Origin: Sphingomonas crusticola
Lineage (GTDB): Bacteria; Pseudomonadota; Alphaproteobacteria; Sphingomonadales; Sphingomonadaceae
DNA: 64,000 nucleotides
Direction: 5' to 3'
Assembly (NCBI RefSeq): GCF_003391115.1
Contig: NZ_QTJP01000001.1
Location: 186,001-250,000, forward strand
Positions 1,279 through 5,659 of this stretch are shown one piece after another. A program made the position numbers and the translations under genes. The notes beneath the pieces are model-generated. The model saw only the letters and a list, made by a program, of their open reading frames with translations. It did no database searches and had not been told where the DNA came from. Within the stretch, counting starts at the first letter, position 1, and the number at the start of each line of letters is the position of its first letter.

Positions 1279-2129
1279 CCTACCAGACCCTGATCGATGC
1301 TGCCTGTCTGGCGCCGCTGGTCGAACAGCAGAAGGTGTTGGTATTCGACTGTCGTTTCGATCTTAGCGATGTAGACGCCGGCCGCGTCGGCTATCTGAGC
1401 GGCCATATTCCCGGCGCTTTGTATCTCGATCTGGATCGCGATCTCTCCGGCACCCCCGACGGCGGCAACGGCCGGCATCCTCTTCCGGAGCGGGCCGAGT
1501 TCGCCGCTCGCATGGCCGAGCTCGGCTTGAGCCGTGGCGTGCAGGTGGTGAGCTATGACACGTCCGGCGGCTTTTATGCGTCGCGGCTGTGGTGGATGTT
1601 GCGCTGGCTTGGTCACCGGGATGTGGCGGTGCTCGACGGAGGCTTGGCGGCGTGGACCGGCGCCGGCCTGGCGCTCGCTTCCGGCGATGAACCGGTTGGC
1701 CGGGGCGATTTCGAGATGTCGCCGGAACCCGCCGTGGCTGCGGTAGATGTCGCTGCGGTGGAAGCCAACCTCGAGAGCGGAAACTTCCTGATCGTGGACG
1801 CGCGCACGGCCGAGCGTTTTGCCGGCGCGCCGCATCCGCTTGATGATGCTTCGGGCCATATTCCCGGCGCGGCCAACCGCCCCTTCCAGCGAAATCTGAC
1901 CGCCGAAGGCACGTTCAAGCCCGCGGCCGAGCTGGCGCGCGACTTCAGGGCTGTGCTGGGAGGGATTTCGCCGGAGCAGGTAGTGCATCAATGCGGATCC
2001 GGCGTAACGGCCACGCATAACCTGCTGGCGATGGAAGTTGCCGGGCTTACCGGCTCGCGCCTTTATCCCGGCTCATGGAGCGAGTGGACCAGCGATACCA
2101 CTCGCTCCATTGCCTCCGGTTCGGATTAG
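1275..2129 (+). CDS. sseA: 3-mercaptopyruvate/thiosulfate sulfurtransferase
   Basis: A 284-residue protein of two rhodanese domains in tandem (roughly residues 5-130 and 155-280). The second holds the catalytic loop HQCGSGVTA with Cys240; CGSG(V/I)T is the 3-mercaptopyruvate sulfurtransferase version of the loop, whereas thiosulfate rhodaneses usually carry CRKGVT. The N-terminal domain has GHIPGA motifs but no active-site Cys, as usual. The TTG start overlaps the lyase by 4 bases (TTGA). The stop TAG interlocks with the stop of the convergent deoxyhypusine synthase-like gene. Expected role: cytoplasmic sulfur transfer from mercaptopyruvate to thiols or cyanide. Confidence 0.88.
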   Translation: MTYQTLIDAACLAPLVEQQKVLVFDCRFDLSDVDAGRVGYLSGHIPGALYLDLDRDLSGTPDGGNGRHPLPERAEFAARMAELGLSRGVQVVSYDTSGGFYASRLWWMLRWLGHRDVAVLDGGLAAWTGAGLALASGDEPVGRGDFEMSPEPAVAAVDVAAVEANLESGNFLIVDARTAERFAGAPHPLDDASGHIPGAANRPFQRNLTAEGTFKPAAELARDFRAVLGGISPEQVVHQCGSGVTATHNLLAMEVAGLTGSRLYPGSWSEWTSDTTRSIASGSD

Positions 2130-3178
2130 TCGAACAGCTTGGCCCAGCCGCGCTTGGCGCGATCCTTCCAGTGGCCGCGATGATAGGCGTCGGACGCCAG
2201 CAACGGCACCACGGAACCGGCTTCCGCAAACACCATCTGCTCGATGCCCGTGTTCACCTTGCCCCAGCTCGCGGCTTCCTGCAGCGTCGAGGACGAGCAA
2301 GCGCCGTCGCGCACGTCGGCGACCGTGATCTGCACTGCGTATTTGTGCACCTGAACGTCGTCATGGCCGAGAATCTCCGCGCAGACGACCGTGTCCTGCA
2401 CGAAATTCTTGGGCACGCCGCCGCCAATCATGAGCAGGCCCGTGATGCCCGCCTTGATCTTGATGTCGGTCAGTTCGCGGAAGTCGGCGATCGAATCGAT
2501 CGTCAGGTAGGGCTTGCCCGCCTTCATCGAATCGACCTGATGCTTGACGAGACCGAAGCCCGCCGAAGAGTCGGTGAAGGCCGGGCAGAAGATCGGCACG
2601 TCATGCTCATAAGCGAGCTTGACCAGGCTGTTCTCCTTCTTGCCATGTTCAACCAGATATTTGCCCATCTCGCGGATGAAGGCGCGCGAAGAATAGGCCT
2701 TGGGCTCCAGCGTCTCGGCGATCTCGAAGATCGTATGATCGACGTGCTGAAGCTCTTCCTCGTCGATATAGGTGTCGTAGATCCGGTCGATCAGCAGCGA
2801 GCGCAGCGTATCATCGTCAGGAATTTCAAGCGCTTGATAATGCTTGTGGCCAAGCCCTTCGAAGAAGTCCATGTCGACGATCGACGCGCCGGTGGCGATG
2901 ATGCCATCGACCATGTTGGAGCGCACCAGCTCGGCATAAGCGTCCATGCAGCCACCGGCCGAGGTCGAGCCCGCGATCACGAGGAAGATTGTGCAATCCT
3001 TGTCGGCGAGCATCTGGTTGTAGATGCCGGTTGCGCGCGCGAGATCGCGGCTGGTGAAGCTCATCTTGCCCATGGCGTCGATGATCGGCCGCGCGTCATA
3101 GCTGCGAATGTCGATATGCTCGACGGTGGTGGACAGAAGCTCGGCCTTGCGGGTGTCGTTTACAGTCAAGTCGGTCAT
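2126..3178 (-). CDS. deoxyhypusine synthase-like polyamine enzyme
   Basis: A 350-residue deoxyhypusine synthase (DS) family protein. It has SAGGCMDAYAEL, CPAFTDSS, IGGGVPKNF (NAD-binding glycine loop) and EAASWGK, whose Lys corresponds to the Schiff-base lysine of human DHS (Lys329). The two histidines after the glycine loop of true DHS (GGGVVKHH) are replaced by Asn-Phe. Bacteria lack eIF5A, so the acceptor must be a small amine. Known bacterial relatives are linked to homospermidine-type amines or 1,9-bis(guanidino)-5-aza-nonane. It lies 112 bp downstream of ornithine decarboxylase on the same strand, favouring putrescine as substrate. The ATG at 3178 was chosen because an upstream extension adds an unconserved segment. 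Confidence 0.85.
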   Translation of the reverse strand: MTDLTVNDTRKAELLSTTVEHIDIRSYDARPIIDAMGKMSFTSRDLARATGIYNQMLADKDCTIFLVIAGSTSAGGCMDAYAELVRSNMVDGIIATGASIVDMDFFEGLGHKHYQALEIPDDDTLRSLLIDRIYDTYIDEEELQHVDHTIFEIAETLEPKAYSSRAFIREMGKYLVEHGKKENSLVKLAYEHDVPIFCPAFTDSSAGFGLVKHQVDSMKAGKPYLTIDSIADFRELTDIKIKAGITGLLMIGGGVPKNFVQDTVVCAEILGHDDVQVHKYAVQITVADVRDGACSSSTLQEAASWGKVNTGIEQMVFAEAGSVVPLLASDAYHRGHWKDRAKRGWAKLFD

Positions 3179-3290: not shown

Positions 3291-4517
3291 TTACAGCGTG
3301 ACGACGTTCGACGGACGAGCCTGCTCCGGCACAGCCTGAACATAGGCGCTCGCCATCGGCTCATTGTCCATGATGACGGTTTCCCCGGCGGTGAAACCGT
3401 TGAAGCCGGTCCGCATCGCGCAACCGTAAGCGCCGAGCATGCCGATCTCGATATAGTCGCCGGCCTGAACGTCAGCTGGCAGCATGAACGGGCCGACCAT
3501 ATGATCGATATCGTCGCAGGTCGGGCCGTAGAAGCTGAACGCCATGTCCTTGGTGCCGGAAGCTTCCTCCCGCACCAGCTCGACCGGGAAACGCCACGCG
3601 ACATGCGCCGCATCGAACAAGGCGCCATAAGCACCGTCGTTGATGTAGAGCTGGTCGCCGCGACGCTTCTCGACCCGCACCAGCAGGCTGGCATATTCAG
3701 CGCACAATGCGCGGCCGGGCTCGGCCCACAATTCGGCCGAATAGGAAATCGGCAGCGCTTCGAACGCAGCGTGAATGGCGTCGAAATAGGCCTCCAGCGG
3801 CGCCGGCTCCATACCAGGATAGATGGACGGGAAGCCGCCGCCGACGTCGATCACGTCAACCGTGACCGCCGCCTCGACGATGGCGTTGCGCACCCGGCCG
3901 AGCGCGTTGATGTAGGCCGAGGGCGACATGGTCTGGCTGCCGACATGGAAACAGATGCCGAGCGCGTCGGCCGCCTGACGGGCGGCGAACAGCAGCGCCT
4001 TCACCTCGGCCGGTTCGGCGCCGAACTTCGATGCAAGGCTGAGCTTGGCATAATCGGAGGGCACTCGCAGCCGCACGCACAAGGTCAGGTCGGTCGCCTG
4101 GCCGGTGGCGCGCATGATCTTTTCCAGCTCCTCGAGCGAGTCGAGCGAGAAGGTGCGCACGCCATGATCGAAATAAGCCTCGCGGATCGCTTCCTCGGCC
4201 TTGACCGGGTGCATGAAGCAAAGCGTCGCCCGGGGCGCGATCCGCGCGACCAAGCGCACTTCCGCAATCGATGCGACATCGAAATGCGTGATCCCGCTTT
4301 CCCACAAGAGCTGGATCAGCTCGGGCGAGGGGTTGGCCTTGACCGCATAAAGCGACCGGCCGTTAAACTTCTCGACGAAGAAGCGCGCCGCGCGCTGGGC
4401 AGCGTGCGGACGAATGAGCGTTACCGGCTGGACCGGGCGCCCGTTGGCGATATCAAGGCTGCTGACAGCCTTGTTCGGGGTGGCAGCTAGCCCCAGCGCG
4501 TTATGTTGCTTGTGCAA
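3291..4517 (-). CDS. ornithine/lysine decarboxylase, alanine-racemase-fold (type III PLP)
   Basis: 408 residues from a TTG at 4517. YAVKANP carries the PLP lysine, FHVGSQ and DVGGGFPS the phosphate-binding region, and FYGPTCDDID holds the Cys and Asp that complete the active site from the partner subunit of the dimer. This is the eukaryotic-type ODC fold found in alphaproteobacteria; it decarboxylates ornithine to putrescine, and some members also accept lysine. A GGAGG sits 9 nt before the TTG. The open frame continues to 4784 but that extension is unconserved and covers the leader RNA and divergent promoter. It is the first gene of a two-gene polyamine operon, probably controlled by the leader immediately upstream. 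Confidence 0.9.
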   Translation of the reverse strand: MHKQHNALGLAATPNKAVSSLDIANGRPVQPVTLIRPHAAQRAARFFVEKFNGRSLYAVKANPSPELIQLLWESGITHFDVASIAEVRLVARIAPRATLCFMHPVKAEEAIREAYFDHGVRTFSLDSLEELEKIMRATGQATDLTLCVRLRVPSDYAKLSLASKFGAEPAEVKALLFAARQAADALGICFHVGSQTMSPSAYINALGRVRNAIVEAAVTVDVIDVGGGFPSIYPGMEPAPLEAYFDAIHAAFEALPISYSAELWAEPGRALCAEYASLLVRVEKRRGDQLYINDGAYGALFDAAHVAWRFPVELVREEASGTKDMAFSFYGPTCDDIDHMVGPFMLPADVQAGDYIEIGMLGAYGCAMRTGFNGFTAGETVIMDNEPMASAYVQAVPEQARPSNVVTL

Positions 4518-4600
4518 TTCAAGGGACCTCCAGTGCCGCAAGCGAACCTGCGGTCTACAGTTGAAAAAAACTGCCTTGCGGTGGAAGTCCCATGGGGCAG
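4518..4600 (-). ncRNA. speF-type 5' leader RNA of ornithine decarboxylase
   Basis: Read on the minus strand, GGGACTTCC (4591-4583) can pair with GGAGGTCCC (4531-4523) in a 9-bp helix (one G-U) that contains the GGAGG ribosome binding site. Inside it, CCGCAAG (4581-4575) pairs perfectly with CTTGCGG (4542-4536), and CAGTT (4573-4569) with AACTG (4562-4558). A competing hairpin pairs CCGCA (4553-4549) with TGCGG (4540-4536), which is exclusive with the 7-bp helix, so two states are possible. The speF motif is an established leader RNA upstream of alphaproteobacterial ornithine decarboxylases. Assignment to that family rests on position and structure; the family covariance model was not run. The 5' boundary is uncertain. 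Confidence 0.72.
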
Positions 4601-4687
4601 CGGAGGCGCTACATAGGAGGGGGGTCCCCCCATGTAAAGTTGCAATCGCACGACAATTTAAACCGTTCCGAGCTGACAGGATAAAGC

Positions 4688-5659
4688 GTGAATTTTCAGA
4701 GCCATAATGAAAGCAGGACGCCGTCCCGCGCGGGCGTCCTCGCTGCGGCGGAGCGTATCGGTGAAACCGTAACACGCACGCCACTTTTGCCCGTGCCCGA
4801 GGGTAGTGGCCGACTGTGGATCAAGGCCGAATCGCTCCAGCTCGGCGGCGCCTTCAAACTGCGCGGCGCTTATAATCGGCTGGCGCAAATGAGCGTCGAG
4901 GAGCGCGTTGCGGGCGTGGTCGCCTTCTCGTCAGGCAATCATGCACAGGGCGTGGCACGGGCAGCGCTCATGCTGGGCATGCCCGCCACGATCGTCATGC
5001 CGGGCGATGCTCCAGCGGTGAAGCTTAACGCCACGCGGGCGCTGGGCGCGGAGATCGTCCGCTATGACCGCCATAATGAGAGCCGGGAACAGATCGCCGC
5101 GGCGATCGCGGCCGAACGCGGTGCGGTGCTGGTGCCCTCATTCGACGATGTCGACGTGATTGAGGGGCAGGGGACGGCAGGGATCGAAATCGCGCAACAG
5201 CTCGGTCGCGGCCCCGCGCGGATCGTCATTCCCTGCGGTGGCGGCGGCCTTGCCGCCGGGATCGCCGTGGCCCTGCCCGAGGCGCAGATCATCGTCGCAG
5301 AGCCCGAGGGCTGGGACGATATGGGGCGGTCGCTTGCCTTGGGCGGGATTGTCGAAGTGCCGGCAGATGCGCCGTTCACCTCCTGCGACGCCCTGCAGAC
5401 CAGGCGGGTCGCAGACTTGACGTTCGCTGCGCTGGTGGAGGCTGGCGCGCTTGGGGTATCCGTCAGCGAAGCGGAAGTGCACGCGGCGATGCGATATGCG
5501 TTCGGGATAGGATTGGTGGTCGAGCCGGGTGGGGCGGTCGCGCTCGCGGCGTGGCTCGCAGGCAGACTGCCGGAGATTGGCGGCGACACAATCATCGTCT
5601 GCTCAGGATCGAATGTCGATCCATCGGCCTATGCGGCGGTGATAGGAGGGGAAGTATGA
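4688..5659 (+). CDS. threonine/serine dehydratase-like PLP enzyme
   Basis: A 323-residue fold-type II PLP enzyme. Early on it has GAFKLRGA with the Schiff-base lysine, SSGNHAQG for the substrate carboxylate, IPCGGGGLAAG for the PLP phosphate and CSGSN near the C terminus. It lacks the C-terminal ACT regulatory domain of IlvA, so it resembles catabolic threonine dehydratase or serine racemase-like enzymes; it would convert L-threonine/L-serine to 2-oxobutyrate/pyruvate plus ammonia. Start GTG at 4688 with AGGA 7 nt upstream. It is divergent from the ornithine decarboxylase leader and overlaps the DUF72 gene (ATGA), so the two are co-translated. Confidence 0.87.
   Translation: MNFQSHNESRTPSRAGVLAAAERIGETVTRTPLLPVPEGSGRLWIKAESLQLGGAFKLRGAYNRLAQMSVEERVAGVVAFSSGNHAQGVARAALMLGMPATIVMPGDAPAVKLNATRALGAEIVRYDRHNESREQIAAAIAAERGAVLVPSFDDVDVIEGQGTAGIEIAQQLGRGPARIVIPCGGGGLAAGIAVALPEAQIIVAEPEGWDDMGRSLALGGIVEVPADAPFTSCDALQTRRVADLTFAALVEAGALGVSVSEAEVHAAMRYAFGIGLVVEPGGAVALAAWLAGRLPEIGGDTIIVCSGSNVDPSAYAAVIGGEV

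Follow-up and report, generated by a model that had tools for sequence, protein, structure and literature searches.

The ornithine decarboxylase leader of Sphingomonas crusticola as a further member of the odc1 motif, with two out-of-frame starts and a conserved uORF stop

The ornithine decarboxylase (ODC) mRNA of Sphingomonas crusticola carries a leader that is almost certainly the odc1 (uORF-25-1) motif described by Brewer et al. (2021; PMC8632094). The element is already in print, and the window, by which we mean the whole 64,000-nucleotide stretch analysed here (contig NZ_QTJP01000001.1, positions 186,001 to 250,000), holds a further member that is real and well conserved. Alignments of related leaders show a pseudoknot with the Shine-Dalgarno (SD) sequence held in a helix, two out-of-frame start codons and a conserved early stop. 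The explanation that best covers the whole, to which we give a probability of about 0.7, is an odc1 leader that controls translation by occluding the SD and by choice of start, with the upstream ORF (uORF) as a decoy. What is new here is all comparative: selection on the uORF stop, variants in uORF length, degraded cases and the spread of the motif to a second family. ODC catalyses the committed step to polyamines, and the natural variants and degraded cases provide test material on the control of ODC in alpha-proteobacteria.

All features of the leader lie on the minus strand, between about 4603 and the ODC start at 4517. GCUGCC (4596-4601), the counterpart of the strand near the 5' terminus in the published pseudoknot, pairs with GGCAGU (4570-4575) to form an enclosing hairpin. 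Within the hairpin loop lies the anti-SD strand of the long helix, GGGACUUCC (4583-4591), followed by a conserved joining segment, ACCGCAA (4576-4582). All seven columns of this segment are invariant or at least 90% conserved in alignment A1, where the anti-SD strand is out of register in some rows (L023, L024, L026 and others). A variable linker (4532-4569; 16-101 nt in relatives), with a clade-specific hairpin inside it (4536-4553), leads to GGAGGUCCC (4523-4531), the 3' strand of the long helix, which contains the SD, GGAGG (4527-4531). Since the GCUGCC/GGCAGC pairing encloses the anti-SD strand, the fold is a pseudoknot. A UUG at 4520-4522 then opens a uORF of 11 codons (MNCTSNITRWG; 4487-4522) that ends in UAG and is out of frame with ODC, whose own UUG start comes 5 nt after that of the uORF and begins a protein of 408 residues (3291-4517; Pfam Orn_Arg_deC_N, 8e-37). 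An earlier note on this DNA, made from the letters alone, had overlooked the enclosing hairpin (4601-4596/4575-4570) that turns the element into a pseudoknot, as well as the second UUG 5 nt ahead of the ODC start, with its 11-codon out-of-frame reading frame.

Thirty-five genomes of the family have this architecture in common: GCUGCC, CCAU or CCAA, GGGACUUCC, AACCGCAA, GGCAGC, the linker of 16-101 nt, the SD strand and the starts. The SD strand reads GGAGGUCCC or GGGGGUCCC and is mostly followed by UUG-AR-UUG. Departures within the family are a shorter SD helix in two leaders (L019, L022) and an A-C mismatch in the hairpin of L030.

That this leader is odc1 is near certain, resting as it does on a match to every feature of the published text description that can be checked in sequence. 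As that text has it, odc1 is an ODC leader with 272 alpha-proteobacterial examples, in which an extended stem includes the ribosome binding site, the 5' end and the loop form a pseudoknot, and two UUG codons with 2 nt between them accompany an 11-residue uORF (PMC8632094). In the window, the leader precedes an alpha-proteobacterial gene that Pfam identifies as ODC; the ribosome binding site lies in the right shoulder of an extended stem (GGGACUUCC/GGAGGUCCC); and the pseudoknot of 5' terminus and loop is found by comparison (GCUGCC/GGCAGU), the window's sequence alone giving nothing above shuffles. A second UUG stands two nucleotides ahead of the UUG main start (UUGAAUUG at 4522-4515), and the overlapping uORF (4522-4487) has 11 residues. 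We found no departure of the window from the text description in PMC8632094.

The odc1 family is absent from the Rfam 15 copy that we searched, so an Rfam scan misses it. At gathering scores the scan of the window returned one tRNA only, and that of 16 fetched loci gave no match. Matches of the leader to AAC_AAD_leader and chrB-b were weak and far under cut-off, and we regard them as noise. Among known RNAs, SAM-II and preQ1-II are H-type pseudoknot translational riboswitches in which a compact pseudoknot puts the SD in a helix. The odc1 leader is like them in this respect, and differs from them in lacking an Rfam match and in having one SD that serves two out-of-frame starts. The spermidine riboswitch, a SAM-I variant, is likewise a cis-regulatory RNA on polyamine genes; as its text describes it, however, it is a SAM-I-type aptamer (PMC10853860), and the window matches no SAM family at gathering scores.

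The earlier note had proposed that a 9-bp helix hides the SD of ODC, and here it was right: GGGACTTCC (4591-4583) can pair with GGAGGTCCC (4531-4523) on the minus strand, with one G-U pair and with GGAGG in the second strand. On the minus strand, 4500-4610 folds with a predicted energy of -42.1 kcal/mol, while shuffled versions average -30.6 (z -3.1; 1 of 200 shuffles as good). Sequestration by the leader of its own ribosome binding site is borne out among relatives, in which the long helix is paired in 95.0% of cells (89 distinct rows, gap cells set aside), though it lay outside the model used for alignment. The enclosing hairpin is paired in 98.1% of cells, with changes on both sides in 5 of its 6 pairs, in an alignment (A2) that was fitted to this same hairpin, so that counts for that helix lean upward. 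In the SD helix both-side changes occur in only 1 of 9 pairs.

Taking the two helices together, we counted 11 cells with both-side changes in 36 leaders (96.3% of cells paired), against a mean of 3.5 in shuffled alignments, none of 500 being as high. The same count over 89 distinct rows of 93 was 26 against a shuffled mean of 4.6 (0/500 as high; 5-10 in slid versions of the helices). By number of pairs the covariation is weaker, since 6 pairs have both-side changes and two slid versions equal this figure. Compensatory forms of the hairpin include GUCGCC/GGCGAC (L020), GCAGCC/GGCUGC (L024, L103), GCUGCU/AGCAGU (L114) and, in the two f8 leaders L123 and L124, UUGCCGA/UCGGCAA. The covariation in orthologous leaders that the earlier note had named as its test was thus found for the hairpin that it had missed and, more weakly, for the long helix that it had proposed.

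The anchor search for the hairpin, which maximises pairing and requires AAGG, returned one whose loop has a strand complementary to the SD in 34 of the 35 family leaders, its pick in L030 being wrong. The SD helix is just 4-6 bp long in L096, L099, L101, L104, L107, L112 and L114. In the window alone, a scan for any hairpin with an SD-pairing loop picked another hairpin, and 3 of 15 shuffles did as well, so it is comparison, not the window's sequence by itself, that carries the pseudoknot. A free pseudoknot scan of 141 nt upstream in 14 leaders (15 shuffles each) beat shuffles in 6, of which 5 gave the expected pairing (L010, L116, L118, L123 and L124; 0/15 shuffles as good). Another hairpin was picked in L001, L112, L114 and L025, and nothing rose above the 15 shuffles in L117, L121, L122, L097 and L098. 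We read the last five as being without the pseudoknot from their missing conserved strings together with this weak scan. Among the degraded leaders, remnants are retained in L117 (CCGTAAGG) and L122 (GGGGGAC).

An SD with two adjacent starts precedes ODC in 35 of 35 family genomes (G000-G034). Among 89 leaders the start pairs are UUG/UUG (79), GUG/UUG (5), AUG/AUG (3) and AUG/GUG (2), so that both codons remain starts where AUG or GUG replaces the UUG of odc1. The uORF has exactly 11 codons in 84 of the 89, a tally made without L040-L043 and with G020 included as L092; in L039-L043 it has 11 codons throughout. The exceptions are 6 codons in both f8 genomes (L123, L124) and 10 codons in L025, all three with starts 4 nt apart, and 22 and 48 codons in L122 and L117. 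The invariant uORF length stated in the text of PMC8632094 therefore holds for most of the members studied here, but not for all.

The uORF ends at nucleotides 29-31 of ODC. With ODC residues 10-11 as they are and codon usage taken from the remainder of the gene, 7.9 of 83 leaders would be expected to have a stop there, and 83 of 83 have one; this sample leaves out the degraded L117, L121 and L122 and the offset-4 L025, L123 and L124, and includes two leaders of family f123. When L117, L121 and L122 are included, the stop stands at codon 12 in 84 of 86 offset-5 leaders. The excess over expectation is 0.90, compared with a largest value of 0.19 at 377 other columns. In 86 leaders ODC codon 10 is GTA (43), CTA (33) or TTA (7), codons that are used sparingly elsewhere: in 77 parsed genes CTA and TTA account for 87 of 2561 Leu codons, and GTA for 114 of 2276 Val codons. 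The stop is TAG in 75 cases, TAA in 7 and TGA in 2, and because all three are used it is the stop itself that is kept and not one base string. By these counts the position of the uORF stop is under very strong selection.

Conservation of the uORF peptide is less striking, though it does not appear neutral. In 81 of the 83 stop-test leaders, those left after a redundancy filter, out-of-frame identity is 0.415 against 0.284 expected; of 62 control windows (mean 0.052, sd 0.036, maximum 0.156), 61 fall below this excess of 0.131. Many members have a peptide close to NCTSIIARWG, and its end differs by clade (ARWG versus LTPGL, LTHWL or LKHRL); the f8 relatives carry unrelated 6-residue peptides. 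The comparison thus ranks the parts by selection, with the two out-of-frame starts and the early stop ahead of the peptide. The parts can also be separated. The pseudoknot is degraded or missing in L117, L121 and L122, and the stop is lost in L117 and L122, which are the sole length exceptions at the 5-nt offset. L121, with no recognisable pseudoknot, retains both starts and the 11 codons, and both f123 leaders (L097, L098) combine the SD strand GGAGGUCCC, a 5-nt start offset and a uORF of 11 codons, and show no recognisable odc1 pseudoknot.

Leader peptides that sense polyamines or ornithine are known from ODC and AdoMetDC mRNAs, and the uORF could by this precedent encode a sensor, the nascent chain or its release being slowed by ornithine or a polyamine, so that a stalled ribosome alters access to the ODC start and the fold sets only the basal level. 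The strong selection on the stop position and the excess conservation of a peptide that stays close to NCTSIIARWG in many members would both fit such a role. We nevertheless consider it unlikely, because the C-terminal residues that a release sensor needs are the ones that differ between clades, and the peptides of the f8 relatives are unrelated altogether. A SpeFL-type ornithine-sensing leader peptide, moreover, has an upstream ORF of its own, runs to some 30 residues and contains a conserved arrest sequence, and the odc1 uORF, with 11 codons, an overlap with ODC and a clade-variable C-terminus, does not resemble one. We read the uORF instead as a decoy, since the first start is always out of frame and soon followed by a stop, and the end of the peptide varies by clade. 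A decoy with a functional stop is a reading toward which we lean only slightly, our confidence being lowered because just 1 of 62 control windows beats the peptide excess.

In the mechanism that we propose, transcription would begin about at the motif, and the first nucleotides would fold into the hairpin GCUGCC/GGCAGC, whose loop strand GGGACUUCC would pair with GGAGGUCCC and bring the SD into the pseudoknot. Initiation would then be low by default; we infer this repression from a structure derived from conservation and covariation. A ribosome arriving at the SD would find two start codons, separated by 4-5 nt, whose frames differ: one leads into ODC and the other into a short peptide. The uORF start would serve as a decoy, with termination on the uORF clearing the ribosome, and the RNA fold would govern both the frequency of SD opening and the choice of start.

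The published reporter data bear on several of these steps. In the E. coli reporter of PMC8632094, which used a Sphingomonas echinoides representative, both starts are used, that of the uORF about 3-fold more, and expression is higher in minimal medium. According to the same text, mutants M4-M6 at conserved positions lower or abolish ODC reporter expression, and M4 and M5 largely spare the uORF. The loss of ODC expression in these mutants implies that the fold is not purely repressive and also promotes the ODC start, which supports a role in start choice. For the same reason we hold SD occlusion to be the likely control point with less confidence than we otherwise would. In the fusions lacZ follows 8 codons of ODC or 10 of the uORF, so that, by the text, the native uORF stop is missing from them (PMC8632094); the most constrained feature in our comparison lies outside those measurements.

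Our leading guess for the signal that toggles the leader is a metabolite of the polyamine pathway, which the conserved joining nucleotides would bind. The ACCGCAA segment is possibly the location of mutants M4-M6, to judge from the wording of PMC8632094, whose section on odc1 reports no ligand and leaves the roles of the fold, the uORF and a ligand undecided. A specific polyamine-pathway ligand is a tentative suggestion on our part. The fuller proposal, in which a ligand-gated pseudoknot controls both the opening of the SD and the choice between out-of-frame starts while the uORF is a drain that works through the position of its stop more than through its peptide, is more doubtful still. A general cation or temperature sensor would do without a pocket: high polyamine or Mg would simply stabilise the pseudoknot. 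Polyamines bind RNA generally, as noted in the text of PMC10853860, and a pseudoknot lying over an SD could respond to them. A non-specific sensor has no need of a nearly invariant ACCGCAA, however, nor does it explain why GCAA is seen again in the distant f8 leaders, and we think such a sensor improbable.

It is very improbable that the leader is a divergent member of Rfam speF, a family to which the earlier note had looked. The two have in common the activity of the downstream enzyme and the bacterial class, speF being a known ODC leader of alpha-proteobacteria (Corbino et al., 2005; PMC1273637). The Rfam speF model, RF00518, nevertheless gave no match in the window's leader even at E up to 10, and we could see no likeness between the two. 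It passed its gathering cut-off (37 bits) in 0 of 59 genomes, where relaxing the threshold to E 1 brought up 16 weak matches. Among 190 genomes of the class it passed in 4, and 6 matched at E 1e-4. Two true speF members with printed alignments (L056, L057) look unrelated to the window's leader in sequence, and all six fetched speF loci stand beside ar45. The speF leader probed by Corbino et al. was some 400 nt long and, by the text of PMC1273637, its RNA bound none of ornithine, lysine, diaminopimelate, putrescine, cadaverine and spermidine. The speF and ar45 matches adjoin in 6 of 6 loci (L056-L061), 7-8 nt apart, like parts of one long leader.

A second element of the earlier note, an inner 7-bp helix (CCGCAAG/CTTGCGG) competing with a shorter hairpin for the same strand, did not survive comparison. 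Among 35 family leaders, only the window's can pair the CCGCAAG strand with the linker over 7 bp; the longest match is 6 bp in one other and at most 5 bp in the remaining 33, and the two-state model fails because the inner helix is private to the window. A hairpin like the supposed competitor is present in the close relatives L002, L006 and L008, and a shorter one in L003-L005 and L007. A chance helix in GC-rich DNA would account for an inner helix that is accidental or private to the window and for a window pseudoknot that alone does no better than shuffles, but as an explanation of the element it is hardly credible, being refuted by the family-wide recurrence of the outer helix and the hairpin with covariation.

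Several other pairings and frames were considered and set aside. A uORF inside the hairpin, starting at the AUG in CCCAUGGG, was rejected, since many members have AAG in its place and a change between GGG and GGGG alters the frame. For an anti-hairpin CAAGG/CYUUG just 3' of the hairpin, the column tallies fit only part of the set. A small hairpin inserted in the loop, seen by eye in L029, L103, L110, L113, L116, L118 and L119, was discarded as a general switch, overlapping the anti-SD strand only in some of them. GCAA might also pair with the UUGC at the start of ODC, each of the two strands being nearly invariant.

A protein search gave matches to ODC or remote paralogues in 57 of 59 genomes; 30 of these made loci, and 17 further upstream regions were fetched. 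We built a covariance model of the motif and ran it on 296 genomes of the order; 213 gave a match, 212 of them in the window's family and one in family f8. Among the non-matching genomes listed, a list that leaves 63 others outside it, the only family genome was G340, which is without an ODC orthologue (best 30% identity). At class level the model matched 7 of 385 genomes, 5 of the window's own family and 2 of family f123. Genome scans with the stricter filter may lose weak members, as with G047, which was missed and later found at E 0.0093. Among named genomes the model matched 80 of 80 ODC loci, the best 80 of 589 candidates and some of them the same records as model members; these best 80 are nearly all titled as sphingomonads, the closest being mostly Sphingomonas and other sphingomonads. 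In the order's other families, ODC orthologues (E below 1e-70) were preceded by the strict SD and start pattern, which misses GGTCTC variants, in 1 of 12 (G047) and not in the other 11. The f123 ODC is 60% identical to that of the window, and the f8 members are 53-55% identical. In the order of G535, 2 of 4 genomes examined have an ODC orthologue.

Sister families f4, f6 and f7 (L045-L051, L053), which are without the odc1 signature, have a separate uORF of about 41-44 codons ahead of ODC, most with a good SD. Its C-terminus in f6, and more loosely in f7, resembles (F/Y)WR(W/F)RFxVLDMxSP, and the uORF appears to encode another type of leader peptide. An alignment of this peptide searched against 289 genomes of the class gave 6 weak partial matches, none convincing.

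Upstream of the motif in the window, a -35 element TTTACA (4633-4638) and a -10 element TATGTA (4610-4615), the latter 8 nt before the motif, form the candidate promoter TTTACA-N17-TATGTA on the minus strand. The top-scoring TTGACA/TATAAT-like site stops 6-12 nt short of the hairpin in 30 of 36 leaders, and the -35 is TTTACA in 19. These sites score 6-9 out of a possible 12, and 64 control windows taken from farther upstream average 5.9; a stricter consensus scan of the window returned no promoter. From this spacing the transcript probably starts at the motif. A palindrome, GGGGGGTCCCCCC (4619-4631), lies between the -35 and the -10 and is a possible operator, and several close relatives have in common a run of G after TTTACA.

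The gene next after ODC in the same direction (2126-3178, minus strand, start codon inferred; Pfam DS, PF01916, 7.1e-87) is deoxyhypusine-synthase-like and presumably encodes a homospermidine synthase, whose product amine the earlier note had put forward as a candidate ligand. Of 30 family loci, 18 have a gene of this kind beside ODC, as do 5 of 6 further loci (L127, L129-L132). The 12 family loci without it there, including all of L021-L030, still carry the motif, which therefore follows ODC and not this neighbour. On the other side, a divergent gene for a PLP-dependent protein of the PALP family (4688-5659, plus strand) starts about 85 bp from the ODC leader.
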